From NCBI RefSeq assembly GCF_019038465.1, contig NZ_JAFKRH010000015.1:124001-188000 (forward strand): a stretch of DNA of 64,000 nucleotides, in the 5' to 3' direction. This document shows positions 5,876-23,663 of this stretch, piece by piece. The notes beneath the pieces were generated by a model, which saw only the letters and a program-made list of their open reading frames with translations, was not told the DNA's origin and made no database searches. Every line of letters begins with the position of its first letter. The stretch's first letter is position 1. Position numbers and translations under genes: made by a program. Source of the DNA: Synechococcus sp. CCY 0621. Its GTDB lineage: Bacteria; Cyanobacteriota; Cyanobacteriia; PCC-6307; Cyanobiaceae.

Positions 5876-5895
5876 GCCGGGCGGCCGCCCGCACC

Positions 5896-7002
5896 ATGCG
5901 TATCGCCTTTCTCGATTCCTGGCTGCAGGACGTGGCCGAGGGCAGCGGCACGGCGGCGGCCATCGGTGGCCTGGCCGGGGCCCTGATCGCCCGGGGCCAC
6001 ACGGTGGAGCGGCTGGTGCCCGAGGGGGCCTGGCCCCGCAACCTGCTGCTGCGCCGGCTCTGGTTCAACCTCACCCTGCCCCGGCGCCTGGCCGCCGCCG
6101 AGGGCCGCTACGACCTGGTGGTGGGCTTCGACATCGACGGCTTCCGGGTGGCGCACCGCTGCCCGGTGCCCTACGTGTGCTGCATCAAGGGGGTGCTGGC
6201 GGAGGAGTCGCGCTGCGAGAGCGGCTGGCCGCGGCTGATGCTCTGGGGACTGTCGCGGCTGGAGCGGCTCAACGCCCGCCGGGCGCCGCGGGTGCTCTCC
6301 ACCAGCGGCTACTGCTGCGAGCGCATCGAGGCGCACTACGGGGTGCCGGCCGAGCGGCTGCGACTGGTGCCGGAGGGGATCGACACCCGTCTCTGGAACC
6401 CGGCGGGCGGGGACGTCGCCGCTCTGGCCGTCATCGACGGAGCCCGCGAGCCCCAGACAGTGCTGTGCGTGGCGCGCCAGTACCCGCGCAAGCGGGTGGC
6501 CGATCTGATCACCGCGTTCCGGAGCGTGCACGAGCGGCTGCCGGGTGCCCGGCTGGTGGTGATCGGCGATGGCCCGGAGCACGTGGCGCTGCGGGAGCTG
6601 GTGGAACGGCTGGGGCTGGTGGAGGTGGTGCAGCTGCTGGGAGCCCTAGCCGACGACGGTGCCGTACGGGACTGGTACCGCCGCAGTGCGGTGTTCTGCC
6701 TGCCGTCGATCCAGGAGGGGTTCGGCATCGTGTTCCTCGAGGCGATGGCCAGCGGACTGCCGGTGGTGAGCACCACGGCCACGGCGATCCCTGAGGTGGT
6801 GCCCCACGGACGGGCCGGGCTGCTGGTGCCGCCGCGGAATCCGGCGGCGCTGGCCGAGGCCCTTGTGACGTTGCTCACCGATCCTGCGCTGCAGGCACGG
6901 CAGCGGGCCTACGGCCGCCAGCACGTGGGGCCGTTCAGCTGGGACCGGGTGGCGGAACGCTTCCTGGAGGCGGTGTCGTCCCCGGAGCCCGCCGGATCGT
7001 GA
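5896..7002 (+). CDS. GT4 family glycosyltransferase
   Basis: This 368-residue protein is a GT-B fold glycosyltransferase of family 4. The N-terminal half opens with a strand like MRIAFLDSWLQDV and an acceptor domain. The C-terminal half carries the nucleotide-sugar site, including RQYPRKRV, VIGDGPE and the E-x7-E motif in EGFGIVFLEAMASGLPVV. Sugar donor and acceptor cannot be told from sequence. A cell-surface or lipid glycan is most likely. It lies 20 bases after purF on the same strand. Its last 68 bases overlap the 3' end of the convergent peptidase gene. Confidence 0.85.
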   Translation: MRIAFLDSWLQDVAEGSGTAAAIGGLAGALIARGHTVERLVPEGAWPRNLLLRRLWFNLTLPRRLAAAEGRYDLVVGFDIDGFRVAHRCPVPYVCCIKGVLAEESRCESGWPRLMLWGLSRLERLNARRAPRVLSTSGYCCERIEAHYGVPAERLRLVPEGIDTRLWNPAGGDVAALAVIDGAREPQTVLCVARQYPRKRVADLITAFRSVHERLPGARLVVIGDGPEHVALRELVERLGLVEVVQLLGALADDGAVRDWYRRSAVFCLPSIQEGFGIVFLEAMASGLPVVSTTATAIPEVVPHGRAGLLVPPRNPAALAEALVTLLTDPALQARQRAYGRQHVGPFSWDRVAERFLEAVSSPEPAGS

Positions 7003-7699
7003 CCAGGCCGCGGCTGCGTCCCGAAGTGCGATCAAGGCTGCGGATCGCGGCCCAGAGGTCAGCCACGGGCACCCACACCGAGGGGTAGCGGTAGCGGGCC
7101 ACATCGAGGATCAGCACCCGGTCGCTGGTGGCGTGGAAGGCTGCTACAGGGGCGATGTGGCCGCCGCCGGCCTGGCCGAGGGAGGGCCGGTCGTAGTTGG
7201 CGAGAAGGCGGTCGCCGGGCTGGCTGAGGTTGGTCCGCAGCAGGGCGCGGAACTGCTCCAGGCTCAGCTGGTCGCCGTGGATCGCTTCGGCTTTCACCCC
7301 GTGGGCCGCCAGCAGGCCGGCCAGCTCGGCCAGGGTCATGCCCTGGCGCCGTACCACCTCGGCGCTCACCACCTGGCTGCTGGCCGGCACCTGGAAGACA
7401 TTCTCCTGGGTCCAGAAGCGGTAACGGCCGTAGCCCGGCACGGCCGGGGCGGGCACGGCCAGGCTGTTCAGCACCATGGCGGCGCTCGCCACACCGCAGT
7501 AGGCGAGGTTGGCCTGGGTGAGGAACTGCTCGGCCAGGGGGCCGTAGTCGGCCCGGGCGCCACTGCCCACCAGCAGCTCCATGCCGGCGGGCTCCATCAG
7601 GGGGATCGGGGCGGCCCTGAGGTGCCCGGCCGTGAGCGGTGCCGCCAGGGCCAGCGACAACAGCACCAGGCCGGGGAACGGGGATGGGGGGCGCGTCAT
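6935..7699 (-). CDS. Phytochelatin-synthase-like papain-fold peptidase
   Basis: The protein has 254 residues and a hydrophobic N-terminal signal segment (about residues 9-25), so it is probably exported. The catalytic triad of the phytochelatin synthase domain is visible: Cys68 in AYCGVASAAM, His181 in GGGHIAPVAAF and Asp199 in VLILDVARYRYP. It lacks the plant-type C-terminal domain. It therefore resembles the short cyanobacterial forms known mainly to hydrolyse glutathione to gamma-Glu-Cys. The ATG at 7699 fits the signal peptide, and a GTG lies one codon upstream. No strong ribosome site is seen. It is convergent with the glycosyltransferase and overlaps it. Confidence 0.85.
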   Translation of the reverse strand: MTRPPSPFPGLVLLSLALAAPLTAGHLRAAPIPLMEPAGMELLVGSGARADYGPLAEQFLTQANLAYCGVASAAMVLNSLAVPAPAVPGYGRYRFWTQENVFQVPASSQVVSAEVVRRQGMTLAELAGLLAAHGVKAEAIHGDQLSLEQFRALLRTNLSQPGDRLLANYDRPSLGQAGGGHIAPVAAFHATSDRVLILDVARYRYPSVWVPVADLWAAIRSLDRTSGRSRGLVTIRRAPGTTPPPGSVPPPGPS

Positions 7700-7797
7700 C
7701 ACGGCGGCTGCGGGCGCTGGGGTGGGGCGGCTCTGGTTGGAAGGTAGGGGAGCCTTCGCTGGGGTGGGTGGGGGCCGCCGGAGTGCACCGCCCGTGA

Positions 7798-8703
7798 TCA
7801 GCCGAGCTCCAGGCAGGCCAGGCCGTAGACGTCCGCCAGCGACACCGCCGGCGGGGCGCCCCGGTACATGCGCAGGGTGCGGGAGACAGGCGCGAACCCC
7901 AGCGACGCCAGCAGCGGGGCGGCGGCGGCATTGGCGCCGGGGGCATCGATCAGCACCGTGCCGGGGTGGCGCTGCAGCAGGCCCTCCAGCAGGGCCCGGG
8001 CGGCGGCGGCGCCATCGGCCACCAGGGGCCCGACGCGCCAGCCTTCGCCAGCGGCCAGCAGGCAGGGCCGCACCCGGCCGAAGCCGTGGCAGGCGCCGCT
8101 GCGGTCCACCAGGGCCAGCACCGTGCCGGCCGGATGGCGCAGCCACTGGCGCAGGAAGTGGGGGCGGGGCGAGGGTTCCCGCTCGGCATCGAAGCGCTGC
8201 ACGGCGTCCGCCGGGATGGCGCCACCCTCCAGCAGGCACCAGGGGGGCTCCGGCGCGACGGACACCGGTGCCGGGTTGCCGGCGGCGGCGAGCCGCTGCC
8301 AGCGGGTGGTGGGGGAGGCGGGCGCAAAGCCCCAGCCGGCGTAGTCGTCGATACGGTCGGGGGCGGCCTCCAGGCCGATGCAGGGCACGTCAGCCAGGTG
8401 CTGGAGGGCGTGGCGCCACAGCTGCAGGCCGTAGCCCCGGCCCCGCTGGGCCGGCACCACCAGGAACAGGCCGATGAAGCCGTAGGAGGCGTTGTAGCGG
8501 ACCCCGGCGATGCACCCCACCGGCTTATCGCCGAACCAGCCCACCCAGAGGCCCTGGCGGTCGGTCTGGCGGTAGATGGCTACATCGCCCACGCCCGGCG
8601 CGAAGCCCTCCTGGCGGGCCCAGGCGGTGATGGTGGGGATGTCGGCGCTCTGCAGGGGGCGGATCGTGAGGGGGGAGGGGCTGCTCCGGTCGGGCGCGCT
8701 CAC
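7798..8703 (-). CDS. Tandem GNAT-domain acetyltransferase
   Basis: This 301-residue protein contains an N-terminal GNAT domain with the acetyl-CoA loop motif QRGRGYGLQLW near residue 86. A second, weaker GNAT-like domain occupies the C-terminal half. Two-domain forms of this kind (with a YitH-like C-terminal part) are common in bacteria and act on small amines or proteins, but the substrate here cannot be predicted. The GTG start at 8703 overlaps the TGA stop of the PIN toxin gene (GTGA), so the two are probably translated together. The last 250 residues are typical of the host genome in base use. Confidence 0.8.
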   Translation of the reverse strand: MSAPDRSSPSPLTIRPLQSADIPTITAWARQEGFAPGVGDVAIYRQTDRQGLWVGWFGDKPVGCIAGVRYNASYGFIGLFLVVPAQRGRGYGLQLWRHALQHLADVPCIGLEAAPDRIDDYAGWGFAPASPTTRWQRLAAAGNPAPVSVAPEPPWCLLEGGAIPADAVQRFDAEREPSPRPHFLRQWLRHPAGTVLALVDRSGACHGFGRVRPCLLAAGEGWRVGPLVADGAAAARALLEGLLQRHPGTVLIDAPGANAAAAPLLASLGFAPVSRTLRMYRGAPPAVSLADVYGLACLELG

Positions 8704-9101
8704 CAGATCGTCTCCAGCTCCGGAATGGCGTGGAGCTTTTCGTCGGCGCTGATCAGGGGCCGGCGACCCTGCAGGGCCGTGGCGCCGATGAGACGGTCGA
8801 CCGGGTCGCCATGGCGGAACTGGGGGCCCCTGGAGAGCAGGGCGATCTCGGCGGTGATCGGCAGCACCTCCAGCCGCAGGGCTTCGAGCAAGCGGCGCAG
8901 GTAGAGGGCCGGGGGCACGGTTTCCGGCAGGCTCAGTCGTCCGCGTTCGTGCAGCAGGGCCAGTTCCCAGAGGCTGATGTCGGCGATGGCCAGCTGGCCC
9001 TGGGCGCGCCCCTGCTCCAGAGCTGCTGCGGCGCGCCGGGACAGCCGGGCCGGCGCATGGGCCCAGAACAGCAGGACATGGGTGTCACAGATGGTCAGCA
9101 T
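8700..9101 (-). CDS. PIN-domain toxin (VapC-like)
   Basis: This is a 133-residue PIN ribonuclease. Conserved acidic residues are Asp6 in the opening ICDTHVLLFW, the Glu in ISLWELALL, and the Asp pair in RHGDPVDRLIGATA. PIN toxins cut RNA, often tRNA or mRNA, and are held in check by their antitoxin. The ATG at 9101 lies inside the end of the antitoxin gene (17-base overlap), the usual layout for such pairs. The stop overlaps the start of the acetyltransferase gene. The open frame extends further upstream, but only inside the antitoxin. Confidence 0.88.
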   Translation of the reverse strand: MLTICDTHVLLFWAHAPARLSRRAAAALEQGRAQGQLAIADISLWELALLHERGRLSLPETVPPALYLRRLLEALRLEVLPITAEIALLSRGPQFRHGDPVDRLIGATALQGRRPLISADEKLHAIPELETIW

Positions 9102-9339
9102 CACCGGTGCCTTCGAGATCGGCGTCGCCAGCGGCGATCGAGGTGATGACATCCCCCAGCGTGACGCTGCCGCCCAGCCCTTCCAGCCAGAGGCGGGCCT
9201 CTTCGGCCGGGTCCTGTTCCGGCTCGATGCGGGCAATCACCCGGCCGTGGGAGGTGACTTGAATGGCTTCCCCGGCCTGAACCCGCTTGAGCCAGGCCGG
9301 CAGGTTCTGGCGCAGGTGGGTTACCGAGACGCGCGCCAT
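9085..9339 (-). CDS. Phd/YefM-type antitoxin
   Basis: The protein has 84 residues, starting at ATG 9339. The N-terminal half fits the Phd/YefM DNA-binding fold: MARVSVTHLRQNLPAWLKRV, followed by GEAIQVTSHGRVIARI. The C-terminal half is the toxin-neutralising tail. It is encoded immediately upstream of and overlapping the PIN toxin, so it is expected to bind the toxin and repress the pair. A perfect 10-base palindrome and a second copy of its core lie 9-31 bases upstream of the start and are the likely operator. An in-frame ATG further upstream (9444) would run through that operator and is unlikely. Confidence 0.85.
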   Translation of the reverse strand: MARVSVTHLRQNLPAWLKRVQAGEAIQVTSHGRVIARIEPEQDPAEEARLWLEGLGGSVTLGDVITSIAAGDADLEGTGDADHL

Positions 9340-9347
9340 GGAGAGCG

Positions 9348-9370
9348 TCTGTACATGAGATCTGTACAGA
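9348..9370 (-). promoter_or_regulatory. Likely antitoxin operator: two TGTACA palindromes
   Basis: TCTGTACA occurs twice in direct orientation, at 9348-9355 and 9361-9368, 13 bases apart. The second copy extends to the perfect 10-base palindrome TCTGTACAGA (9361-9370). The spacing is a little over one helical turn, so two antitoxin dimers could bind side by side. Phd/YefM antitoxins use short palindromes containing TGTAC in several known systems. The operator role is inferred from position and symmetry. Confidence 0.6.
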
Positions 9371-9442
9371 TTAGGGCTTCTGTGGATGGGGATTGGGTCC
9401 GGGGTGGGAACTCTCAAGAGTCCCCACCACACTCTCGAGGCC

Positions 9443-10333
9443 ATGGTCGACGCCTGCCGCTCCCCCGGTCTGATCCAGCGCTTTCGCTAGCAGCTGCAGG
9501 TGCGCCATGACGCCCGCCGCACCGTGAACACCTAGGAGCAGTGACTGCGGCGCTTCCTGCGGTTTCACGGCAGATGCCACCCCCGCGAGATGGGCAGCGC
9601 TGCTGTTTCTGTACCGGGAGCTGCTGGAGCGGGACCTGGAGCTGGAGGGGGTGGTGCGGGCACGGACACGGCGCCGGCTGCCGGTCGTGCTCAGCGAAGT
9701 GGAGGTGCGGGCGGTGCGCCAACGACTGGAGGGAGAGGCGGCCCTGGTGGTGGGGTTGCTGTGCGGAAGCGGGCTCAGGCTGATGGAGGCGCTTCGACTC
9801 CGGGTCAAGGATCTCGATGTTCAGCGGTGTGAGCTCACGGTGCGCGACGGCAAGGGCGGCAAGGACCGGCTGACGGTGCTGCCCCAGAGCCCGGTGCCTC
9901 AACTGCAGGAGCATCTGCTGAAGGTGCGCCAGTTGCATCAGGGTGATCTGGCGGCGGGCTTGGGCGGGTGGTGATGCCCTATGCCCTGGCGAGGATGTAT
10001 CCGAGGGCGGCTCGGGAGTGGGCCTGGCAGTGGGTGTTTCCCCAACAGAACCGCTGGCAAGACCGGGCCTCAGGAACCCAGGGCCGCCATTACTCCGATC
10101 CGAGCGTGGTGCAGAATATGGTGAAGCGGGCAGTGGCCAAGGCGGGCCTTACGAAGGCGGCCAGTTGCCATATCTTCCGCCACTCGTTCGCGACCCGCCT
10201 GCTGGAAAGGAGGCAGGACATCCGCATGATCCAGGAATTTCTGGGACATCGGGACGTGAGTACTACCATGATCTACACCCATGTGTTGAACCGTGTGCTG
10301 ATCGGTGTTTGCAGCCCAGCGGACATGATGTAG
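9443..10333 (+). pseudogene. intI: Integron integrase (IntI-type tyrosine recombinase), inactivated
   Basis: The C-terminal part has the tyrosine recombinase residues: Arg in CGSGLRLMEAL, His-x-x-Arg in FRHSFAT, His in LGHRDVSTTM and the Tyr of IYTHVLN. Between patch and catalytic blocks it carries the extra helix found only in integron integrases (ALARMYPRAAREWAWQWVFP). The N-terminal core-binding domain can be followed from ATG 9443 but has in-frame stops at 9488-9490, 9533-9535 and 9542-9544. About 25-30 residues are missing with a frame change near 9597-9603. Another frame change lies near 9961-9968. The gene is therefore dead. It can no longer move cassettes unless a second integrase exists elsewhere. 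Confidence 0.9.
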
Positions 10334-10345
10334 CCATGGCTACAT
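10328..10345. repeat. 18-bp perfect palindrome at the integrase 3' end
   Basis: ATGTAGCCATGGCTACAT reads the same on both strands. It contains the TAG stop of the integrase relic (10331-10333). No thymine run follows, so it is not a typical terminator. It could be a protein-binding site or chance. Confidence 0.6.
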
Positions 10346-10850
10346 GTGGTTATCGGACCCGTGAACCGCTGCCCACGACTTGGCCTTCTAACTAAGATCG
10401 CTGTGCAGGAAAGGATTCTCGTCCGATGTTTCACAAGTGCCAGCTGTGGTTCACAGAATGGAGCGGAATAAGGTCCGTGGTTCACGGAACTTCCCAAATA
10501 TGGAGTTCGAAGAATCGCGCCATCGTTCATGAGAGTCTGAACAGATGAGTTACGCGATCTTACCCGATGCGCTACCTTGCGTAATGGTCGAAATCCGTGA
10601 AATGGAGCTGTCTTCTCTTTGGTTTGATCGCCGTAATCTAGCGCCGCGAGCGCAGATTCAAGCATGGATTGACGTCTAACAAGTATATAACGTCTGCTGG
10701 GTTGATCGGTACTCAAGTCTGTTCACGCCGCCTCATTCCCGCCCCGGCAGGTTGCGCGGGTCCAGCAACGCTGCAATCATTTTCCAATAGGGTGATTGCC
10801 AAGATTGCAAATTTCTATGGTACTATGGCGAGTATCATGCATGAAAAACA
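10334..10850. other. Gene-free stretch between integrase relic and methyltransferase
   Basis: There is no convincing coding sequence on either strand. Short open frames here have no recognisable domain and no ribosome site. Two sequences resemble integron half-sites: CTTCTAACTAAGATC at about 10386-10400, and GTCTAAC at 10674-10680, which fits the RYYYAAC form of an attC left core. No matching GTTRRRY right core was found at attC distance from either. The last 100 bases become AT-rich and probably hold the promoter for the methyltransferase. Confidence 0.45.
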
Positions 10851-11618
10851 GTGGCGCACGAGCAGCAACTCTATTTTGTTTCTTGTGTACAAAAGAGCTT
10901 TCCTCAGTTCTTTGCGGATGCTAAAGTTCTTGAAATTGGATCCCTGGATATTTGTGGATCTGTGCGCAAATTCTTCAGTAACTGTTCCTATATTGGTGTC
11001 GATGTAGCCCCAGGCGAAGGGGTTGACGTGGTATGTCAAGGTCAAGACTATGATGCCCAAGATGGCAGCTTTGATCATGTTATATCTTGCGAAGCCATGG
11101 AACACAACCCTATGTGGAAAGAAACTTTTATAAACATGGTTCGTCTTGTCAAGCCTGGAGGTCTCCTTACAATGACCTGCGCATCTTACTGCCGCCCAGA
11201 ACACGGAACCACTAGAACATCATCGGTCGAATCATCACCGTTGTCAGTCTCAATTGGATGGGAGTATTACCGCAACCTAGGCATCGCGGATTTTAAATCC
11301 GTAATCGACTTCGACTCCCGCTTCAGCTTTTATAGATTCTGGACCAACTGGAAGAGCAAGGATCTCTATCTAGTGGCCATTCGCAGGAATGGACCTAACA
11401 ATATGCAAATTGAAAAAACTTTCAGCGAGGTTGACCGATGGATAGCCATTGAGGCCCAAGCCGTTATCTACAGATTTGCTTCACTCGCAGCATCCCTTGC
11501 AGGCGAGAGAGGTGCGAATATTGTTCTGCGGAAACCTCTATCTAGCATTATTTGGCAAGTAGAAGCATCATATTACAAAGCTCTGGGTTGGGCATCTAGA
11601 CTGATTAAGGGTTCATAA
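10851..11618 (+). CDS. SAM-dependent methyltransferase, class I
   Basis: This 255-residue protein has the Rossmann SAM-binding opening VLEIGSLDICGSV at residues 26-38, an acidic strand end (YIGVDVAPG) and a post-motif block near SFDHVISCEAMEHN. A LVKPGGLLTMT strand lies in the methyltransferase core. The target is unknown. Relatives of this shape are often found among glycan or natural-product genes. The start used is GTG 10851, because the following residues (AHEQQLYFV) fit the family. The nearby ATG at 10837 is in another frame. The gene is clearly AT-richer than the flanking chromosome, with different codon use, which suggests recent transfer. Confidence 0.8.
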   Translation: MAHEQQLYFVSCVQKSFPQFFADAKVLEIGSLDICGSVRKFFSNCSYIGVDVAPGEGVDVVCQGQDYDAQDGSFDHVISCEAMEHNPMWKETFINMVRLVKPGGLLTMTCASYCRPEHGTTRTSSVESSPLSVSIGWEYYRNLGIADFKSVIDFDSRFSFYRFWTNWKSKDLYLVAIRRNGPNNMQIEKTFSEVDRWIAIEAQAVIYRFASLAASLAGERGANIVLRKPLSSIIWQVEASYYKALGWASRLIKGS

Positions 11619-11631
11619 TTGCTGGCCTAGC

Positions 11632-11890
11632 ATGGTTGCTGCAACAGCCTATCTAGAGGTTTGAATCAAGGAGTCTGATGGTGATGCTGTATTCATCGCC
11701 AAAGCACGTGGTGAAATCGCTTGGGCGAAGGAGATAACAATGGATGCGCGGGATACGGGTCTATCAAGGGAAAGCATGTACAATGCTCTTCTGGAGACAG
11801 AAGCCTGAGTTTAGGCAGTATCCTGAAACTAGCCCGCTCTTGGTATGAGGTTGAGCGTTCATGTGAGGCAAGAGCCGGAGATTATATGGA
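11632..11890 (+). pseudogene. HigA-type addiction-module antidote relic
   Basis: From ATG 11632 the frame reads MVAATAYLEV and then a stop, followed in the same frame by a helix-turn-helix region with DAVFIAKARGEIAWAKEI and GLSRESMYNAL. After a stop near 11805 the remainder is recoverable only by shifting frame: PEFRQ, then ILKLAR, then ALGMRLSVHV. This is the order of the small antidote proteins of HigA/XRE type (the family also called putative addiction module antidote). Several frame changes make it non-functional. No recognisable toxin partner remains upstream. Confidence 0.7.
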
Positions 11891-12317
11891 TTCTGATATT
11901 GATGCATAGCTCCGCGCACGTTGTCTGTTGCGAGGCGACACCTCGAACAAGCTCCTCGAGTGGACAGGCCCAGCCCCTTCTGGTATCAGATACTCTTTGC
12001 CTGCTACTCAGGGGCAGTGTTAGGCTGAAAGTTAGCTAAAGTACAGTCAGCACAAAATCAATCTGACTTCTTTCAGTTGGAATCAATGTTGAGGCGAATA
12101 TGGCTAACTCTCTAGAGAATATCATACCATTGTTGAGTTGTGTGACTCGTACATCGTTAGGAACTGTTTGCATTTCTTCGGGAATTCGTGACGACTGCCG
12201 AACTGGAGAAGGCGAAGTTTATCCGCTTGTCGATCTTGCTACGATGGTTAGACACGCTATTGGTCATGTAATTGTCCTCGGTCTGAACCGCCATCAGACC
12301 TTTCTTCTCCGAGTTCC
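11891..12317. other. Decayed stretch with one attC-like right core
   Basis: No intact gene is seen. AGTGTTAGGC at 12016-12025 repeats exactly at 14410-14419 and contains the consensus right core GTTAGGC. From 12100 a short frame reads MANSLENIIPLL. This weakly resembles the linker upstream of cyclic-nucleotide domains in NTP/NDP-translocase-like HEAT proteins, which would fit the relic just downstream. That link is tentative. GTTAGAC also occurs near 12248. Confidence 0.4.
12016..12025 (+). other. attC-like right core (R' box)
   Basis: AGTGTTAGGC contains GTTAGGC (12019-12025), which matches the GTTRRRY consensus of integron attC right cores. It lies about 110 bases after the last recoverable stop of the antidote relic. 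The same 10 bases occur at the end of the clear attC-like element at 14340-14419. A matching left core was not found, so the site may be eroded. Confidence 0.4.
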
Positions 12318-12755
12318 ATGGCCAGCACGGCCCTGCATGACAAGATTCAGAGGCTCAGGCGAGCCAGTATCTTTGCCTCAACTCCCGACAATGTGTTGAC
12401 CGCTGTGGCTGATGCTGTGGAAGAAGTGCAGCTTGCGCCCAACCAGCAACTGTTAGCCAAAGGAGATCTCGGCACCTCAATGTACGTGATCGTTTCCGGA
12501 TTGGTGCGGGTACATATTGGCGACTAGACCATAGTCGAACTTACGGACGGTGAGATCGTGGGTGAGCTCGCCGCTCTCGACCCAGAACCTCGCTCTGCCT
12601 CGGTGAGCACGATCGATCCGAGTACTCTCTACAAGATTGAGCAGTCGACCCTACAGATCTTAATGGCCGAACACCCCGAGATCGTGCAAGGGATAATCAA
12701 GGAGCTGGCCCACCGCTTGCGTGTAACCACCGCTCCCTACGGATTCAGCTTCTGA
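12318..12755 (+). pseudogene. Cyclic-nucleotide-binding domain protein, one in-frame stop
   Basis: The frame from ATG 12318 encodes a cNMP-binding beta roll (CRP-like). Recognisable segments are LHDKIQRLRRASIF, GDLGTSMYVIVSGLVRVHIG, then after the stop at 12525-12527 the same frame continues with TIVELTDGEIVGELAALDPE and PRSASVSTID. GELAALDPEPRSA is the phosphate-binding cassette. Only a single TAG separates the halves. The relic resembles the C-terminal cNMP domain of larger transporter-like HEAT proteins, with the rest lost. No helix-turn-helix follows, so it is not a CRP-type regulator. Confidence 0.75.
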
Positions 12756-13152
12756 ATGTCCTACAGGCAATGGTTACTGTGTAGCGATGGTCTGGTAAAT
12801 ATGAAGATACAGAAGCCGTGATCAATGCGTAGGTATTCATCAGTACAAAGGCGTGATCGCTTCTGATCTTGGGCGTTAGTCTTCTTGAACTCCTGTTATC
12901 CCAAGCTCAATTTTTTTAGGGAGAATCTTCTACATAAAAAAGACGCGTTTTATTGCATTCTACGAACATGATCGCAGGGTGTTTTAGACGCCAGCAGAAA
13001 CTTCAGAAATCTACCCTCGATGACCATCGAATTGCGGGCCCCGCTCGTTTTAATGGTGCTGATCGCTAGCACTAGTTGCGGCACGCTGTTGCCCCCCTGT
13101 AGTTGATGTAAGTACCAGTTCGTCCGCGCCTGGAAAGGATTGTTTTGTTCCT
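12756..13152. other. Gene-free stretch with attC-like right end
   Basis: No convincing gene is present. Bases 12862-12881 read TCTGATCTTGGGCGTTAGTC and match the end of the attC-like element at 14400-14419 in 16 of 19 aligned positions. An AT-rich patch follows near 12905-12960. At about 13020-13100 a short hydrophobic frame may be the start of the membrane-protein relic downstream. Confidence 0.45.
12862..12881 (+). other. attC-like right end, second copy
   Basis: TCTGATCTTGGGCGTTAGTC aligns with GCTGATCTTGAGTGTTAGGC at 14400-14419 (16 of 19 positions after the first base). It ends in GTTAGTC, close to GTTRRRY. It is about 120 bases past the stop of the cyclic-nucleotide relic, which is where an attC site would sit. 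Repeated right ends downstream of successive genes are a hallmark of cassette arrays. Confidence 0.5.
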
Positions 13153-13686
13153 TGGCAGCTGGCCGCGTTCTATCTGCTGTTGGGAATTACGTTGCTACTT
13201 AGAGCCTCGATGCTGCTCGACACGTTGCAGGAGGCGGGACATACACAACCACTGAGGATCGCTTAGCTGGCCGTCGGTATCGGACTGATGGCTCTCGGTC
13301 TACGAATGGAGCCTTGGAGGAAAGTGGGCAAGGAGCGTCGCGGCATTCGCCGACCGGAACATTGGTCCGCACCGGCCCAAGCCTCCTTGTGCGGATGCTG
13401 CGGCATGTGATTGATGCGTCGGCCCCCGTCGGCGCCGTCATCGAATTCGCGTTGCCGACGTGCGATCGACGCTTTAACCGCATCGGAGTTGTCACTACTG
13501 GGGCGCAGTATGGTGCTCTTCGGTTATTGTCTGATGATGATCACAATAGCGCTATTGCTTCTGTTGGCGCGGCTTTTGCTACCTTGTTATGTTTAGCCTG
13601 TCTTGACAAAGCTGGAGGTGCTTCTGTCCCGTAGTGGCAACGAGGCGATGGCCAGAGTGTTTCTTTTGATTGGCCAGGGCCTGTGA
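13153..13686 (+). pseudogene. Decayed integral membrane protein, GAP/Sap-like
   Basis: Hydrophobic segments can be read in changing frames. WQLAAFYLLLGITLLLRAS comes first, then an in-frame stop and LAVGIGLMALGLR. A later frame gives MVLFGYCLMMITIALLLLLA, and near the end KLEVLLSRSGNEAMARVFLL. The last segment resembles the C-terminal helix of GAP-family (Sap) membrane proteins, where a WL-x-R-N/H element precedes the final helix. Several frame changes and stops rule out a functional protein. Family assignment is tentative. It is upstream of and on the same strand as the SnoaL-like gene. Confidence 0.35.
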
Positions 13687-13814
13687 CCGTCAACTGATCT
13701 ACCTATTCATTCAAACGGACGTCCGTCCCGTACGAAGAGTAAACTGGCGTTGTCAGCGGCGGCTGCTGCTGCGATCAAACGCTTGGCGACCTTAAGCTTG
13801 GGATAGGAGACAGG

Positions 13815-14345
13815 ATGAGCAAACAGGATAGTCACGCGAAACTGGATGCGATCTTCCAAGCGCATCTCCAAGCCGAATTGGCTGGCGACCTCGATGAGAC
13901 GCTGGCGACCATGTCGCCAGATCCCCATCTCGTGAATGTGCCGACCATGGTGGGCGGTCAAGGTCCGCAGAGTGTTCGTAGGTTCTATTCCAAACGGCTC
14001 ATTGGTCAGTTTTTCCCGCCCGATGTCATTTTTGAAACGGTTTCGCGAACGTATGGCGAGGAACGCCTCGTGGATGAACTGATCATCTCGTTCACGCATA
14101 CGATCAAGATGGACCACATCCTGCCCGGGATTGAACCCACGGGCCGGAAGGTTGAAGCTGTGTTTGTTGTGATCGTTGGAATCGAAAACGATAAGGTCGC
14201 CTATGAACACATCCTCTGGGATCAGGCGAGTGTTCTGGTGCAGTTGGGTTTGCTCGATCCGAAGGGTCTCCCCGTCGTTGGCGCGGGTGCTGCAGCAAAG
14301 TTGAGAAATCCGGCGCTGCCGGATCCCTTCTTCCATGAGGGCTAA
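13815..14345 (+). CDS. SnoaL-like / NTF2-fold protein
   Basis: This intact 176-residue ORF starts at ATG 13815 with an AGGAGA ribosome site just upstream. The N-terminal helix (LDAIFQAHLQAELAGDLDET) is followed by strand segments such as DPHLVNVPTM and VAYEHILWDQASVLVQLGLL, as in SnoaL-like polyketide cyclase/ester hydrolase relatives of the NTF2 fold. The substrate is unknown. Its TAA stop lies inside the left core of an attC-like element (GGCTAAC, 14340-14346), exactly where integron cassette genes often end. It is the best-preserved candidate cassette gene in the island. Confidence 0.75.
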   Translation: MSKQDSHAKLDAIFQAHLQAELAGDLDETLATMSPDPHLVNVPTMVGGQGPQSVRRFYSKRLIGQFFPPDVIFETVSRTYGEERLVDELIISFTHTIKMDHILPGIEPTGRKVEAVFVVIVGIENDKVAYEHILWDQASVLVQLGLLDPKGLPVVGAGAAAKLRNPALPDPFFHEG

Positions 14346-14419
14346 CTGCCGTGACCTGCACCTACCCTCACCAAGCAGCTGACAGCGCAGCGCGCTGCAG
14401 CTGATCTTGAGTGTTAGGC
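14340..14419 (+). other. attC-like recombination site
   Basis: The 80-base element runs from GGCTAAC (14340-14346, overlapping the SnoaL stop) to GTTAGGC (14413-14419). The two cores are complementary at six of seven positions. Inside is a 12-bp hairpin with left arm 14376-14388, loop AGC at 14389-14391 and right arm 14392-14403. It has one unpaired A at 14382, like the extrahelical bases that orient real attC sites. Outer AAG/CTT and CTC/GAG pairs extend the stem. No thymine run follows, which argues against a terminator. Confidence 0.6.
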
Positions 14420-14471
14420 CGGGAGTGCAGGGTCGGCATGACACGACGCAATGCCATGAAGGCCACTCCTG

Positions 14472-14612
14472 GTGTGCTGGCTGATTGCTGTCGCCATCGA
14501 CTTGGTCCTGGCGGTGGTCTTCGTCCTGATCGCGCACCGGCGCGGTTGGGGTGATCTGCCTGCCCTACTCGAGCCGATGGTGCCCGTCTCCCGTGGTTCC
14601 CGTCACCTGTAG
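14472..14612 (+). CDS. Small single-helix membrane ORF, uncertain
   Basis: From GTG 14472 a 46-codon frame reads a hydrophobic helix (WLIAVAIDLVLAVVFVLIA), a basic turn HRRG and a short tail, ending at TAG 14610-14612. Eight bases later is GTTAGGC (14620-14626). It could be a tiny cassette gene or the N-terminal fragment of a DUF3054-like membrane protein. No ribosome site is evident. It lies in the 344 bases between the SnoaL gene and the next methyltransferase, which otherwise hold only the attC-like element. Confidence 0.3.
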   Translation: MCWLIAVAIDLVLAVVFVLIAHRRGWGDLPALLEPMVPVSRGSRHL

Positions 14613-14619
14613 AGAACGA

Positions 14620-14626
14620 GTTAGGC
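14620..14626 (+). other. Isolated attC-like right core
   Basis: GTTAGGC occurs here on the + strand, the third exact copy within 2.6 kb of the island. There is no clear left core or hairpin. It may mark the eroded end of a short cassette that begins after 14413. Confidence 0.3.
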
Positions 14627-14689
14627 TGATTTGGTGAGTGAATCATTCAACAGTCAAGCCCCCTTCTGCATTCCAACTGGCGATAGAAG

Positions 14690-15521
14690 ATGGAATATGA
14701 AATTCTGAAGCAGGCACTTCAAGGCATTTCCAGCAAGGATCTTGAACAGATAAAGAGTTGGTACTCCCCCGCCGCCGAGGCCTATCACTCCACGAGGCCC
14801 CGATACCCTGCCGAACTGATTGACAAGGTTGTCAACGCAGCCCAGTTGTCTTGGTCATTCAGACTTCTTGAAGTTGGTTGTGGCCCGGGAACCGCAACCG
14901 TTTCATTGGCAGAACTCGGCTAGCCGGATGGTCTGCATCGAACCGAACCCAGACTTTTATGAGATGGCCCTGGCGAATTGCACATCCTATCCATTGGTAG
15001 AAGTGATCAATAAGTCCTTTGAAGAATGGGATCTGGAGCCTGAATCCTTTGATGCCGTTGTGGCGGCAAGCTCCATGCATTGGATTCCTGCCGAGATTGG
15101 CTATGCCAAAGCCAGCAGTGCACTGAAAAGGGATGGCTATCTAATTCTTTTGTGGAACAAAGAATTGCAGCCCAGCAAGTCCATGCAGGATGCGCTTTCT
15201 GATGTCTATCGACGAGAGGCTCCATCTCTTGGCAGATACGAAGACAGGGCAACACAGCAGGGCATTCTGAACGGCCTCGGCCAGATGATGCTTGACTCTG
15301 GACTGTTCCGAAACCTTGTGACGGCAACGGTTGAAACCTCGTTGACCTATGCGGCTGACCACTACCTATCCCTGCTCACGACGGACTCCTCGTACCTGCA
15401 GTTTGATCACCGCACGGGGCAGGCCTTGTTGGCTGGGCTAAGGCAATGCATCATGGAGAAGGGAGGTGGTGACATTCAACTCTCCTATCTCTCCGCCTAT
15501 CACATTGCCCAGAAGATCTAG
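14690..15521 (+). pseudogene. SAM-dependent methyltransferase with one frameshift
   Basis: From ATG 14690 the first frame gives WYSPAAEAYHSTRPRYP and the SAM motif LLEVGCGPGTATVSLAELG, then a TAG near 14921. The +1 frame continues at once with RMVCIEPNPDFYEMAL, SFDAVVAASSMHWI and YLILLWNKE, ending at 15521. Together they make a complete class I methyltransferase of about 276 residues. The total length is one base over a multiple of three, so a single inserted base (or two lost) explains it. This could be real decay or a sequencing error. It ends three bases before the next ORF. Confidence 0.8.
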
Positions 15522-15524
15522 AAC

Positions 15525-16175
15525 ATGTTGGCAATTAAGTTCACCGAAGGACGTCAACGCATGCCGACCAGCCTCCCCCTGCCACTAGGTTCATCCCAGC
15601 CATCGGTGATGGTTGAACCAGCGATCGACATCAGCCCAGATCTTATCTCCGTTCAATTCTGTGAAAATCAGAAACGCTGCAAGCAGTTTGATGTCTCAGT
15701 CAACAACTGGGGACCTGTCGGAGACACGGGTGCCATGGGTTATCTGTATGTCGGAGTCCAACAGGGAAGCGACAGGATCGCATTGGGTGCCATGGCAAGT
15801 CTGCAGTTCGGTGGCATCCTCTTGTCGTCCGGAAAAATTATCAAACTGGCCCCATCCTTTCCCAGCGGCGACAACCCCATCCTGAGCATCACTGTTCGCG
15901 GAGCCCAGCCTCGTCTGGAGATGCCTTCTCCCAGTCTCTCCCTGTCCTATGGCGCTGAGCTTCGTGAATTTCACCCCCAGCTCGCTCTAGGCAGGAACCG
16001 GATTCTTGCGAGCGGTAGCGTGGATGGATCCCCGCTCCTCAGAGCAGGGGTCAGATTGCTGATCTCTGGCGTGGGTATCACCTTTGATGGCCATTATGCG
16101 GTTACCGAAACAACGCATCAATATGATCTTTCTGGATATCGCACTAGCTTCCTCTGTGAGAAGCGCATCCCTTAG
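15525..16175 (+). CDS. Shrunken phage protein D / injection-system hub-like ORF
   Basis: This is an open 216-codon frame. The N-terminal third matches the start of phage protein D (VgrG/gpD-like hub of tails and contractile injection systems): ISPDLISVQFCENQKRCKQF, then LAPSFPSGDNPILSITVRG. The last 80 residues match its C-terminus: LSYGAELREFHPQLAL, RAGVRLLISGVG, then HYAVTETTHQYDLSGYRTSF. Between these blocks about 100 or more residues are missing, and more are missing before RILASGS. The full protein is normally over 300 residues. The frame stayed open despite the deletions. ATG 15561 is an alternative start. No other tail genes are nearby. Confidence 0.65.
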   Translation: MLAIKFTEGRQRMPTSLPLPLGSSQPSVMVEPAIDISPDLISVQFCENQKRCKQFDVSVNNWGPVGDTGAMGYLYVGVQQGSDRIALGAMASLQFGGILLSSGKIIKLAPSFPSGDNPILSITVRGAQPRLEMPSPSLSLSYGAELREFHPQLALGRNRILASGSVDGSPLLRAGVRLLISGVGITFDGHYAVTETTHQYDLSGYRTSFLCEKRIP

Positions 16176-16261
16176 CCGCCGCCTCGGGCTGCTGCGGACA
16201 GGCAGGAGTCCTTCTCCTTGTCAGACTGGACTCACAGGATCGATGGAAGGAGTTGTTGATC

Positions 16262-16998
16262 ATGCGTCTGGCTATCGTGGGTGCGGGCCGACTGGGCGGC
16301 TATTTCGGTGCCCGTCTATGCAGGGGCGGAGCCGATGTGCTCTTCATCGCCTGCGGAGCACACCTTCAGGCCATGAAGACCGATGGCCTGCGGATCGAGT
16401 GCCCCGATCCGTTCCACATCGCCTCAGTCGGGGCGAGGACGATCCGCGTGTCGTCGGCATCGTCGATGTCGTGATGCTCTGGGACACCGTGGCCGCGCCA
16501 CAACAGATCTGACCATTGGTCGGGCCGAGCACTGCGATCCTTTCGCCCCAGAATGGTGTTCTGAAGGACTAGGACCTGCAGGCGGCCCTCGGCCCATCGC
16601 AGATCGTGGACGGCGTCAGTTAGATCGCCGCGACCCTTGACAGGCCTGGCGTCATTCGCCGGGCAGGTCCCCTGCAGAAGCTGGTGTTCGGTGAGTTCTA
16701 TGGGTCCCGATCCTCTCGAGGTGAGGCACTGCTGCAGGCCTGCCTCGCTGGTGGCATCGAGGCCGAGCTCTCCGGCGACATCCTGCACGACACGTGGCGG
16801 AAGTTCGTGTTTCTGGTGAGGCTCTCGGGCACCACCACCACGATCTGCAAGACCATCGTTGTGATTCGTGGCAATCCGCGGACCCGTACCTACCTGCTGG
16901 ATGTCTTGCGCGAAGTGGTGGCGGTCGGCCGTGTCCACGGAGTGGATCCGGCTGAGCACGAAGCGGAGGAGGCCCTGCAACGAACGCGCCGCCATTGA
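16262..16998 (+). pseudogene. panE: Ketopantoate reductase (PanE/ApbA) relic
   Basis: The start at ATG 16262 has a GGAAGGAG ribosome site. It encodes the Rossmann opening MRLAIVGAGRLGGYFGARLC followed by ADVLFIACGAHLQAM. After about 60 residues the frame breaks. Later pieces in other frames match the family: LVGPSTAILSPQNGV, LQKLVFGEFYGS, AELSGDILHDTWRKFVFLV and LLDVLREVVAVGRVHGVD. Several stops and frame changes are present and the C-terminal domain is truncated. PanE reduces ketopantoate in pantothenate synthesis, but PanE-like proteins have other substrates too. The region 16999-17175 has no clear gene. Confidence 0.75.
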
Positions 16999-17175
16999 CT
17001 ACATGCTCAACGCGTGTAGCAGCCAACCACGAGATTTTCTGTAACCACGCCTGCTGTGGATGCCGGGGTTGTTGCCGTCGTGCCAGAAGCTCTGAGCAGT
17101 CTCGGAGGAGATAGCTTTCTGGACGCCGTGTCCCGTGCACTGGATTCCACGCGAGTCTGAGTTGTGTCGCTTGCC

Positions 17176-17568
17176 ATGAAGTTCGGCTACACGATCATCT
17201 ACGTCCCGGATGTGGCCCAGTCGCTTGCCTTCTTCGAAGCCGCCTTCGGTCTGAGGCGCCGGTTTCTGCATGAATCGGGCACCTATGGCGAGCTGGACAC
17301 GGGGGAGACGACCCTGGCCTTCGCCGACCACGCCCTCGGGGATGCGAATGTCCCCGGCGGCCTTGTCCGAGCCGATGGATCCCAGCAACCCCTGGGTGTC
17401 GAGATCGCCCTGGTGACGGAGGATGTGGCGGCCGCGCACCTCCAGGCTCTGCAGGAGGGCGCAACGGAGCTCGCTGCTCCCCTGATCAAGCCCTGGGGCC
17501 AGACGGTCTCCTACGTCCGGGCCCCTGACGGCACCCTCATCGAACTCTGCACCCCGGTGGCAGGCTGA
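17176..17568 (+). CDS. VOC family (glyoxalase/bleomycin-resistance-like) protein
   Basis: The protein has 130 residues from ATG 17176. Two beta-alpha-beta-beta-beta modules are visible, starting MKFGYTIIYVPDVAQSLAFF and ending YVRAPDGTLIELCTP. The Glu of LIELC is the usual C-terminal metal ligand. An N-terminal His ligand is not obvious, so metal binding is uncertain. Functions in this superfamily range from glyoxalase I to antibiotic binding. A GTG at 17164 would add four residues. The ORF is intact, unlike its upstream neighbours. Confidence 0.85.
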   Translation: MKFGYTIIYVPDVAQSLAFFEAAFGLRRRFLHESGTYGELDTGETTLAFADHALGDANVPGGLVRADGSQQPLGVEIALVTEDVAAAHLQALQEGATELAAPLIKPWGQTVSYVRAPDGTLIELCTPVAG

Positions 17569-17652
17569 GGGCGCCCTGCTTTGCCGAAACCCGTAGCGGT
17601 GGTCCCTGATCACGGATGTGTGCCACGTTGGCAGGCGCTGTGGTGAGCTTCC

Positions 17653-18146
17653 GTGAACGCACCGCCCCTGACAGTGCGCCGAGCGACGCACGCCGACCTG
17701 ACGGTGCTGGCCCGCTTCGGCTTCGCCCTTGGTCAGCTGCATGTCGGTTTTGATGGGGCTCGCTTCGCCGTGCCGCCCGGTGCGGTGGCGAGGGCGCCTG
17801 TGCGGCGTTCTTCCGGGCGGAGCTCCAGCGTCCGGAGGTCGTGCTGCTGATCGCCCAGGCGGGTTCCCAACCCGTGGGTTATGCCTTCGTGCGGATGGAG
17901 CCGATGAGCTTGGTGGAGCTGCGCGGCGCTGGAGCCTGGCTTCACGACATCTACGTGGATCCCCAGGCCAGGAGCGGCGGCATCGGCCGCCGGCTGCTCG
18001 AGGCGGCCAAGGAGGTGGCCCTCGCCCTGGGCTCCACCAGCCTGATGCTCAGTGCGTCGACGCACAATGCCGCCGCCCGTCAACTGTTCGAGCGCTCCGG
18101 ACTCCGCCCGACCATGGTCGAGATGCGGATCGAACTGGGGGCGTGA
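17653..18146 (+). pseudogene. GNAT acetyltransferase with one frameshift
   Basis: The first frame from GTG 17653 reads PLTVRRATHADLTVLARFGF and LGQLHVGFDGARFAVPPG. Around 17785-17800 the reading must shift to continue with AAFFRAELQRPEVVLLIAQ. The acetyl-CoA region DIYVDPQARSGGIGRRLLEA and the end ARQLFERSGLRPTMVEMRI follow. The total of 494 bases is two over a multiple of three. A single missing base or a sequencing error would explain it. The stop overlaps the GTG of the next gene (GTGA). Confidence 0.8.
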
Positions 18147-18481
18147 AGCGGGAGCTCCCCCTTGAGGACGCCGCCGAGATCGAACGCCTTGTCCGCGATT
18201 TCGAAGCCCTGTCGCTTCCGCGAGCCAACTGGACGCACCGCGCCCATCTTGCTGTCGGCGTTCACTACGTTCGCCACTGGGGCCTGGATGGCGCCCTGCA
18301 GCGGATGCGGGAGCGCCTCCAGGCCTACAACCTGGCCTGCGGCGACCCCGTCGGTTACAGCGAGACGATCACAGCTGCCTATCTCGCCAGCATCGCTGCT
18401 GAAATCAGCAGCGACGGCCGTGCTGTGAGCATGGCCGACCAGGTCGCTCGGCTGGAGAAGCGTGTGCTGACCGTCCGCTGA
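18143..18481 (+). CDS. Conserved WTH-motif protein of unknown function
   Basis: The 112-residue ORF starts at GTG 18143, overlapping the GNAT stop. It is helical, with a central motif NWTHRAHLAVGVHYV and a later block GYSETITAAYLASIA. Small proteins with the W-T-H-x-x-H-L pattern are found in many bacteria, often next to acetyltransferases or enzymes of small-molecule metabolism. Their function is not established to my knowledge. The His pairs could bind a metal, which is inference. It is the last gene of the island and is followed six bases later by the convergent topoisomerase gene. Confidence 0.65.
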   Translation: MKRELPLEDAAEIERLVRDFEALSLPRANWTHRAHLAVGVHYVRHWGLDGALQRMRERLQAYNLACGDPVGYSETITAAYLASIAAEISSDGRAVSMADQVARLEKRVLTVR

Positions 18482-18486
18482 CCGGC

Positions 18487-20955
18487 CTACGGCCCGCCGA
18501 TCAAGGGCACCAGTTGCTGCACCGCATCGCCGGGCTTCAGCGCCAGCAAGGTGCCTGAGCCGCCGCAGTCTTCCGGTGCCAGCTGGGGGGCCTTCAGCCG
18601 CAGGCTGCGGCCCTCGCTGCCCTCCAGCGTCACGCCGATCACAGGGGCGTCGCCGGCCTGCAGGTCCACCAGGACATCCTCGCGCTCCAGGAAGCGCAGG
18701 CCGATCTGGCCCATGGCGCCCCGCTGGCAGGGCCGCAGGCTCTCGAGCTGCAGCCGTTTCACCTGGCCGCGGCGGCTGGCCAGCAGCACGTCGCCGCCGG
18801 CGGCCGCCCGCGCCGCCCCCACGATCCGTTCGCCCGGCAGCAGGCGCAGCAGCATCGGCCCCTGGGCGGTGCGGCCCAGCACCGGCAGGTTGGGGTCGTT
18901 GATCGCCAGCCGCAGCACCCGCCCCGTGCTGGTGGCCACCACCAGATCCTCCCCCTCCAGGCAGGGCACCACCCGCTGCAGCGCCACGCCTTCCTTGAGC
19001 TTCAGCACGGTGGCAGGCCGGCCCGAAAGCTCCAGGAAATCCTCGATCGGCAGCCGCTTGAAGCGTCCATCGGTGCTCAGCAGCCCCAGGCTGCCGCTGG
19101 CGGGCTGCGGCAGAGGCAGCACCTGCACCACCTGCTCCCCCTGCAGGCTGTCGGGCAGGAAGCGCTCCAGCTTGCCGGGGTGCTGGCCGGCGAATTCCCA
19201 GCGCAGCAACGCCACCTTGCCGCCGGCACTGAAAGCCAGCAGGGCCGGCTGCTCGGCCACCGGCAGGATCAGTCGCGCCGGCGGCGGCAGCTCGCCCAGC
19301 TCGGCGGCGTCATCGAGGTGCAGCCGCCCCAGCACCTGGGGCGTCACGATCCGCACGGCGCCGTCGGTCTGGATCAGGAGCCGGCCATCGCTGGCCAGGG
19401 CCTCGAAGGCCTGCTGCCGCTGCAGTTCGGTGTTGGGCCGCACCGCCGCCGCCCGCTGGGCCACCAGGGCATCGCCGCCCTCCACCAGGCGGGTGCGGCG
19501 GGGCGTCGCATAGCGCTTCTTGAGCCCCTTGAGCTCGCTCACCATCGTGTCGAGCAGGGTGTCGCGGTCGTCGAGCAGGTGCCGCAGCCGGGTGCGTTCC
19601 TGCTCCAGTTCCGCCGCCTCCTTGCGCAGCCCCTCCTGCTCCAGGCCCGTGAGCCGCCGCAGCGGCATGGCCAGCACCGCATCGGCCTGGCGTTCGCTCA
19701 GGTCCAGGTGCACCTGCAGGCTGGCCCGCGCCGTGGCGGCATCCCGTGCCTCGCTGATCATCTCGATCACCCGCTTCAGGTCGTCGAGGGCCTTGATCAG
19801 CCCCTGCACCACCTCCAGTCGGTCTTCGCAGCGTTTCAGCGCATGGTTGGTGCGCCGCAGGATCGTCAGCTCCCTGTACTCCAGGAACCGCAGCAGCAGC
19901 TGGCGCAGGTTCAGCTGCTGGGGCTGGCCGTTCACCAGCGTCAGCAGGATGGCGCCGAAATTGCTCTGCAGGGCCGTGCGGCGCTGCAGTTCCTCCAGCA
20001 CCTTCTGGGGTTCGGCATCGCGCCGCAGTTCGATCACCACCCGCATCCCGTCGCGGTCGCTCTCGTCGCGGATGTCGGCGATGCCGCCGATCTTGCCGTC
20101 GTTGACCTGCTCGGCCAGCTTCTCGATCCAGCCCGCCTTGCTCAACTGGTACGGCAGCTCCGTCACCACCACGGCACCGCGGCGGTGGCGCCCCTTGCCC
20201 GGTTGCACTTCCTCGATGTGGGCCACACCCCGCATCGGGATGCTGCCCCGCCCCGTGGCGTAGGTGTCGCGCACGCCGCTGCCCAGCAGCACCTCGCCGC
20301 CGGTGGGGAAGTCCGGGCCCGGCACCATCGCCAGCAGCTTCTCCTCGGGCAGGTCGGGCTTGCGGATCAGGGCGATCAGCGCATCCACCACCTCGCCCAG
20401 GTTGTGGGGGGGGATGCTGGTGGCCATGCCCACGGCGATGCCGGTGCAGCCGTTCAGCAGCAGGAAGGGCAGCTGGGCCGGCAGCACCGTCGGCTCCTGC
20501 TGGGAGCCATCGAAGTTGGGGGCGAAATCGACCGTGTCGCTGCCGATCTCATCGAGCATCGCCTCGTTGGCGATCGGCGCCAGCCGGGTTTCCGTGTACC
20601 GCATCGCCGCCGGCGGATCGTCGTCCACCGAGCCGAAGTTGCCGTGGCCGTCCAGCAGCGGGTGGCGGCTGGCGAAGGTCTGCACCAGTCGCACCAGGGC
20701 GTCGTAGACGGCCTGGTCACCGTGGGGGTGGTACTTGCCCAGCACGTCGCCCACCACCCGGGCGCACTTGCGGTACGGCCGGTCGGGGGTCAGCCCCAGC
20801 TCGTGCATCGCGAACAGGATGCGGCGCTGCACCGGCTTGAGCCCGTCGCGCACGTCCGGCAGGGCCCGTCCCACGATCACGCTCATCGCGTACTCGAGGT
20901 AGGAGCGCTGCATCTCCTGATGCAGGGCGATCGGTTGGACGCGCTCGTCCGGCAT
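18487..20955 (-). CDS. Type II topoisomerase subunit A (ParC/GyrA-like)
   Basis: The 822-residue DNA-cleaving subunit has the catalytic Tyr in [10 protein letters not shown] and the N-terminal winged-helix region with [17 protein letters not shown]. The quinolone-determining helix reads [12 protein letters not shown], with Gln where enteric GyrA and ParC have Ser. The C-terminal pinwheel is present, but the gyrase-specific box is degraded (QRGAMGQ instead of QRRGGKG). This fits a topoisomerase IV-like role, or decatenation, rather than classical supercoiling. Picocyanobacteria usually carry a separate gyrA. The ATG at 20955 begins [11 protein letters not shown]. Confidence 0.88.
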
Positions 20956-21017
20956 CCGGTCCTGGGGGTCTGCGGCTCAGGGCGCTCAGCCTACAGATGG
21001 TGCCCGTGGCAACCAGA

Positions 21018-21923
21018 TCAGGAGTCGTCGCTGCTGCCACCGTTGCCGTCACCGGCGGTGGCATTGGCCTGGGCCCGCTCCACCGCGGCCTTCAGCTCCG
21101 GCAGGGCCAGCAGCTGGGCGGTCACCGCCCGCAGCCGCGGCCCCCACAGCTGCTCCTTCTGGAAGCTGTCCTTCACGTAGTTGGGCTCCTCAGCCAGGGC
21201 GGTTTCGGCCAGCTTCAGGGCCTGGGCCCGCTCCGCCGGTCCGCGCTCAAACAGGGCCGCCGCCAGGGCCAGGGAGGTTTCGGCGATGTCCGGCTTGATC
21301 TTCAGCACCCGCTGCCAGCGGCCGATGGCGTCGGCGGTGCGGCCGCTCTCGAACAGCACCAGGCCCTGGTTGTTGATCGCTTCCCAGAAGTCCTTGCGCA
21401 GCCCCGCAGCCTTCTCGAACGAGCCCAGGGCCGCGTCGGTGTTGCCCAGCAGGATCTGGGCATTGCCCAGATCGAAGTAGGCACCGGCGTTCTTGCCGTC
21501 CAGTTCAATGCCTTTGCGCAGCAGGCCGATGGCGTCCTGGGGCTTGCCATTGCGCAGGGCCAGGGAGCCTTCGGCGAACCAGATGCCGGCATTGTTGGGA
21601 TCCAGCTGCTTGGCCCGGGCCAGGGCCACCACCGCCTTCTCCATCTGGTTGCTGCGCAGTTCCGCCTCCGCCAGCAGCACCCAGCCGCGGGGGTCGTCCG
21701 GCAGCAGCCGCACGGTCAGTTCCGCCAGCCGGGCGGCGTCCTCCGCCTGGCCGAGCCGCAGCAACCGTGCCGCCGCCTGGGCGATGCCCAGCCCCGCCCC
21801 CTCCAGTTCCTTTTCCTGGGGCAGGTACACGAAAGGCACCAGTGCCTTGGCCGGAGCGGGAAGCACCGTCAGTGGCAAGGCCAGGCAGAGGGAGGAAAAC
21901 AGTCGCCAGAACCGCCGGCCCAC
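21018..21923 (-). CDS. Exported tetratricopeptide-repeat protein
   Basis: The protein has 301 residues. Residues 1-28 look like a Sec signal peptide (LFSSLCLALPLTVLPAPAKA), so it is probably periplasmic or thylakoid-lumenal. About five TPR units follow. Clear ones begin near DPRGWVLLAEAELRSNQMEK, NAGIWFAEGSLALRNGKPQD and NAGAYFDLGNAQILLGNTDA. TPR proteins are scaffolds, and this one is of cyanobacterial type with no known partner. It lies between queG and the topoisomerase gene on the same strand. Confidence 0.8.
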   Translation of the reverse strand: MGRRFWRLFSSLCLALPLTVLPAPAKALVPFVYLPQEKELEGAGLGIAQAAARLLRLGQAEDAARLAELTVRLLPDDPRGWVLLAEAELRSNQMEKAVVALARAKQLDPNNAGIWFAEGSLALRNGKPQDAIGLLRKGIELDGKNAGAYFDLGNAQILLGNTDAALGSFEKAAGLRKDFWEAINNQGLVLFESGRTADAIGRWQRVLKIKPDIAETSLALAAALFERGPAERAQALKLAETALAEEPNYVKDSFQKEQLWGPRLRAVTAQLLALPELKAAVERAQANATAGDGNGGSSDDS

Positions 21924-21947
21924 GGAATCACCCCGAATCCTCCCAGC

Positions 21948-22940: not shown

Positions 22941-22958
22941 GAATCCGACCCTCCCTGA

Positions 22959-23609
22959 GTGGCTGCCGTTTCCTCCTCCCGTTTCAGCCCGCTGTTGCGC
23001 TGGATGGGCCTCACCCTGGTGGTGCTGCTTGTCCTGCAGCTGGTCGCCGTCCTCAGCCTCTGGGACTGGGAAGAGGAGGCGTTCCGCCAGCTGGTGGTGG
23101 AGCGGCTGATCAGCCAGGCCCCCATGGGTCTGATCGGTCTGCTGCTCATGTACCTCTCCTCCCGCCTGGAAGACCAGTCGGAGGGGCGCACGCCCGTCCT
23201 CTGGACGGTCTGCATCATCAGTGGTCTGCTGGCTGTTCTGCTGACCGCCTCGCTGCCGATCACGTTCGGTGGTGACCAGCAGATGCAGCAGCAGAACGAC
23301 CAGCAGATCGCCGCCAAGCGCGGCCAGCTGGAGATGGCCCGCCAGCAGAGCAAGGATCCCGCCCTGCTGCAGCAGCTGATCCGCCAGGCCGAAGCCACCG
23401 GCCAGGTGCCCCCCGGCGCCACCGAGGCCCAGAAGACCCAGTCGGCCCGGGCCTTCATCGATCGCCAGCTCGACCAGCTCGAAACCCAGTTCAAGCAGAC
23501 CGAGCAGACCGGCAAGGTCACCCTCAGCCAGCGCCGCTATGGCGGATCGCTTGGCGCGGTGGTGCTGATCATCGCGTTCACCATCCTTTGCCTCGGCAGT
23601 GTCCTGTAA
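22959..23609 (+). CDS. HpsJ-like two-end membrane protein
   Basis: The 216-residue protein has helices at about residues 14-35, 53-68 and 79-98. A long Gln-rich soluble segment follows with MARQQSKDPALLQQLI and coiled-coil character, then a final helix (GAVVLIIAFTILCLG). This layout matches the cyanobacterial HpsJ-B family linked to hormogonium polysaccharide export. Unicellular species also have it, so that role may not apply. It starts at GTG 22959. It is followed by the DUF502 gene. Confidence 0.65.
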   Translation: MAAVSSSRFSPLLRWMGLTLVVLLVLQLVAVLSLWDWEEEAFRQLVVERLISQAPMGLIGLLLMYLSSRLEDQSEGRTPVLWTVCIISGLLAVLLTASLPITFGGDQQMQQQNDQQIAAKRGQLEMARQQSKDPALLQQLIRQAEATGQVPPGATEAQKTQSARAFIDRQLDQLETQFKQTEQTGKVTLSQRRYGGSLGAVVLIIAFTILCLGSVL

Positions 23610-23663
23610 GACCCCCGTGGATCGTTACCGTTAGGGTTTCGCCCCTACGGACCCCTTCTTCCA

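Follow-up and report, generated by a model that had tools for sequence, protein, structure and literature searches.

A decayed short-form attC, very probably the end of the SnoaL segment in the relic of a sedentary chromosomal integron of a Cyanobium-type picocyanobacterium

Cyanobacterial integrons and covariance models of attC, pseudogenes of the integrase gene intI, and clusters of attCs without an integrase have already been described (PMC2426708, PMC8352920, PMC3108266, PMC9024848). The attCs of cyanobacteria in particular have been modelled (PMC8352920). Types of attC without an identifiable AAC have been reported, as have the integrons of Treponema, in which intI is transcribed toward attI, an atypical orientation (PMC3607928). 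Integrons with an intI pseudogene are known as 'pseudo-integrons' (PMC2426708), and 43-46% of intI genes are predicted to be inactive (PMC3108266).

The locus described here lies in a window, the whole 64,000-nucleotide stretch of DNA that was analysed, from a genus that groups with Cyanobium, Vulcanococcus and freshwater Synechococcus by its matches to named genomes. This Cyanobium-type picocyanobacterium very probably carries the relic of a sedentary chromosomal integron, with a SnoaL segment that ends in a decayed attC of the short form. The integron contains the following features before that site:

9443 to 10333, forward strand: pseudogene of the integron integrase gene intI, recognised by TIGR02249 in two frames
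10480 to 10507, forward strand: attI, with a tail ...TGGTTCACGGAACC..CCAATAAAGAGTT that is conserved in relatives and followed by divergence
10851 to 11618, forward strand: methyltransferase-like ORF occupying the first cassette position (Pfam Methyltransf_11, 3.9e-7)
11942 to 12025, reverse strand: attC, the best preserved of three, CTCGAAC ... GTTAGGC (covariance model, E 2.4e-12)
12793 to 12881, reverse strand: attC with a decayed R'' (covariance model, E 1.4e-5)
13815 to 14345, forward strand: SnoaL-like gene, the last before the attC at 14360-14419 (Pfam SnoaL, 2.8e-6, slightly below the gathering score)

The intI gene belongs to the integron integrase family, though as a pseudogene, and its two main segments are 85-92% identical to an intact IntI of the genus. 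Compared with the intact intI of L045, it is interrupted by three in-frame stops (9488, 9533 and 9542) and has lost 80 bp near 9600, in a deletion flanked by short repeats, as well as a single nucleotide near 9965, and it cannot be counted as an intact integrase. A profile search found no other integron integrase in the genome of the window. intI is transcribed toward attI. In relatives, the sequence past intI is conserved through ...CCAATAAAGAGTT and then diverges, the pattern expected where the cassettes that follow attI differ, and the crossover triplet GTT would lie at about 10505-10507. attI is followed by three attCs in one orientation, of which the site at 14360-14419 is the third, and relatives repeat this layout of intI, attI and attCs. 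All three attCs lie inside an island of low GC (about 46-60% at roughly 10400-16250, where the chromosome has about 70%). Broken genes fill the island (window 12400-16998); they include a cNMP-binding-like stretch around 12400-12750, recognised by reading alone, a methyltransferase with a break at about 14922, and pieces of a ketopantoate reductase around 16262-16998. An ORF at 15525-16175 in the island has a weak VgrG-related match (NCBIfam NF033848, 6e-8).

The attC family of the genus was characterised from 20 stretches of up to 20 kb surrounding the intI genes of relatives. In these stretches, the attCs are mostly 83-102 nt long and lie 3' of intI in a single orientation, and no significant attC was found upstream of intI. 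A covariance model was trained on an alignment of 56 attCs from 16 related genomes. The stem of these attCs consists of standard pairs in 97.7% of cases, with changes on both sides in 12 of 16 pairs, and sliding one partner lowers the pairing to 36-45% (44-45% for a slide of one column). Run unfiltered on window 5000-25000, the model returned attCs at 11943-12025 (55.5 bits), 12795-12881 (28.5 bits) and 14361-14419 (23.3 bits, E 2.7e-4 in 20 kb), and nothing else above 8 bits except the reverse strand of the first attC (13.9 bits). The third score is above background in this comparison with a genus-built model, although genome-wide it is weak (E 0.045). A simple scan for cores plus fold, with AAC required in R'', missed all three attCs of the window because their left cores are unusual or decayed; profile and covariance searches recovered them. 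Rfam at gathering thresholds gave tRNA only, and a DNA-similarity search of the rest of the genome found no convincing copy of the site.

An earlier note, made from the letters of the window, had called a complete attC at 14340-14419, with cores GGCTAAC and GTTAGGC around a hairpin and with the stop of the SnoaL gene inside the left core. The elements that bear on this call are as follows:

14340 to 14346, forward strand: GGCTAAC, the end of the SnoaL gene and not an attC core
14360 to 14419, reverse strand: decayed attC of the short (60-nt) form
14360 to 14366, forward strand: R'' core ACCTACC, decayed, where RYYYAAC is expected
14413 to 14419, forward strand: R' core GTTAGGC, intact

GGCTAAC and GTTAGGC are present where the note had placed them, and the SnoaL stop codon TAA at 14343-14345 does fall within GGCTAAC. 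The hairpin also reads as it was described: CAGCTG-a-CAGCGC / agc / GCGCTG-CAGCTG, with a stem of 12 bp, a single unpaired A and a loop of 3 nt. Its fold is more stable than all 200 shuffles (z -3.5 for the bottom strand, -4.3 for the top strand). The bottom-strand hairpin carries L boxes and an extrahelical base, and GTTAGGC, which agrees with GTTRRRY by direct reading and in the model alignment, is a regular R' core. The short attC form has this 12-bp stem, with its unpaired base and 3-nt loop, as its upper part.

These features together had been regarded as unusual by chance. A core pair like GGCTAAC/GTTAGGC at attC-like distance is expected about 0.25 times and occurs at least once in 23% of simulated sequences as long as the low-GC island; a 40-mer of equal stability arose in 3 of 40 simulations. 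The core pair and hairpin are therefore only moderately unusual and not decisive alone, which is what a palindrome adjoining the SnoaL gene by accident would have in its favour. Such an accident is scarcely credible against the covariance match, the homologous site in the relative L077 (described below), the array context and the R'-L' arm, which is identical at 20 of 22 bases to the genus attC L057:179-265. The part that chance does not explain is that the site belongs to the genus attC family, with a left core at 14360.

A stable hairpin shortly 3' of a stop codon could in principle be a Rho-independent terminator or another RNA hairpin ending the SnoaL gene. The T-run of a terminator is absent, and the terminator scan that followed up this alternative was negative. 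In addition, the arm of the hairpin matches attCs of unrelated loci. The sequences after the SnoaL orthologs of L074, L055 and L075 contain neither the hairpin nor a recognisable attC. A terminator or other RNA hairpin of the SnoaL gene is very improbable. The absence of the attC in these three relatives may reflect either loss there or gain on few branches.

The left boundary of the attC was decided by several comparisons. The covariance model sets R'' at ACCTAC(C), 14360-14366, with its match beginning at 14361 and not at 14340. The SnoaL orthologs of six relatives (L073, L074, L075, L055, L076 and L077) end in GGCTGA or GGTTGA, with TGA at the position of the stop codon in GGCTAAC, which indicates that TAA here is merely a stop codon. 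Homology with relatives that have no attC continues past the SnoaL stop up to 14358-14360, where the attC starts. L077, a relative without intI at the locus, has an ungapped 60-nt homolog of 14360-14419 in the same place, identical at 41 of 60 positions, in which R'' is intact (ACCTAAC at 14360, with identical spacing) and R' is mutated (GCTGGGC). In the same genome as the window, L087:10276-10334 is an intact short attC of 51.4 bits with the same 12-bp stem, single unpaired base and 3-nt loop, and its R'' stands two bases after the lower stem. The stems of this attC and of the window site differ in two pairs, both by compensatory changes. The model, the orthologs, the end of homology, L077 and L087 all agree on a boundary at 14360.

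These data bear directly on an 80-nt attC in which GGCTAAC at 14340 would be the true R'', separated from the hairpin by some 20 inserted nt. GGCTAAC agrees with RYYYAAC in 6 positions out of 7, a genuine attC from the genus (in L044) uses it as R'', and stops in or near R'' are frequent in cassette genes. In contrast, the sequence between the stop and 14358-14360 is common to relatives without attC, and an insertion of this kind is improbable given the TGA of the orthologs and the R'' of L077. The cores GGCTAAC and GTTAGGC are complementary at 6 of 7 positions, with the seventh mismatched, and they lie 29 nt and 9 nt from the hairpin, respectively, so the core at 14340 misfits the attC geometry of the genus. 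The call of an attC was thus right in kind, given the model match and the array behind an intI pseudogene and attI, and its extent is 14360-14419. The site is not complete, because its true R'' is decayed and GGCTAAC lies outside it, and the stop inside the supposed left core is a coincidence. With ACC where the AAC triplet is expected beside L'', the site can only be filed as a decayed attC and not as a working one. In other respects, it is typical of the known attC family.

Close relatives have SnoaL orthologs that are 79-95% identical, and there too the gene has the array on one side and the right chromosomal flank (from window position 17629) on the other. From these positions, SnoaL would fit the role of a last array member that became fixed long ago. 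In L042 (G002), a strong attC lies 28 bp upstream of the SnoaL ortholog. L042 was considered as a clean SnoaL cassette and dropped, because the site after the gene is weak (19.4 bits) and may be chance. In this weak attC-like site (L042:1347-1395), the SnoaL stop codon falls inside the R' core, and it is possibly a new attC-like site born from the gene's own end.

By analogy with known integron biology, the bottom strand of the intact site would have folded into a hairpin whose R and L boxes would be bound by IntI. IntI would then cleave at the R' core (G^TT) and link it with attI, and the cassette would be inserted or excised in single-stranded form. On the same grounds, the site is presumably inactive today. 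With R'' damaged and intI reduced to a pseudogene, the SnoaL segment is most likely immobile and would now be fixed in place. The genome retains about 20 further attCs but no intact integrase, so the site is probably immobile.

The covariance model found 19 further attCs (E <= 1) on seven other contigs, and a local search found 23, most of them strong. Their loci, L086 (C46), L087 (C35), L088 (C16), L089 (C31), L090 (C21), L091 (C10) and L092 (C26), have no intact integrase and are integrase-less attC clusters. Many of these attCs score equal to those from arrays with intact intI. It is conceivable, though rather doubtful, that the roughly 20 attCs form a cassette reserve mobilised in trans by the integrases of neighbouring strains, in which the SnoaL site would be all but dead. 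Across the genus, a high-scoring integron integrase (over the family cut-off) occurs in 28 of 42 genomes, and attC matches occur in all 42, with 1 to 63 in each, including genomes without detectable intI.

These results correct the left boundary of the attC call by 20 bases and show the erosion of an attC after loss of its integrase. Within the genus, the arrays form a clear series that runs from those whose integrase appears intact (in those 28 genomes) to dead ones like that of the window, and this series comes from bacteria little noted for integrons.

The site at 14360-14419 is a decayed member of a described kind. It resembles the attCs of sedentary chromosomal integrons (PMC8352920) in its R' and R'' cores, L boxes, extrahelical base and bottom-strand hairpin, as well as in its place after a cassette gene in an array behind intI. 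It differs from them in that R'' is decayed, a second extrahelical base is not clear and the variable loop is very short (3 nt). As in the Treponema integrons (PMC3607928), intI points to attI and the cassettes, whereas the host here is a picocyanobacterium and the integrase is broken. The locus shares with pseudo-integrons (PMC2426708; PMC3108266) an integrase broken by stops and frameshifts, and is set apart from them by several lesions in one gene and by the 20 or so further attCs left in the genome.
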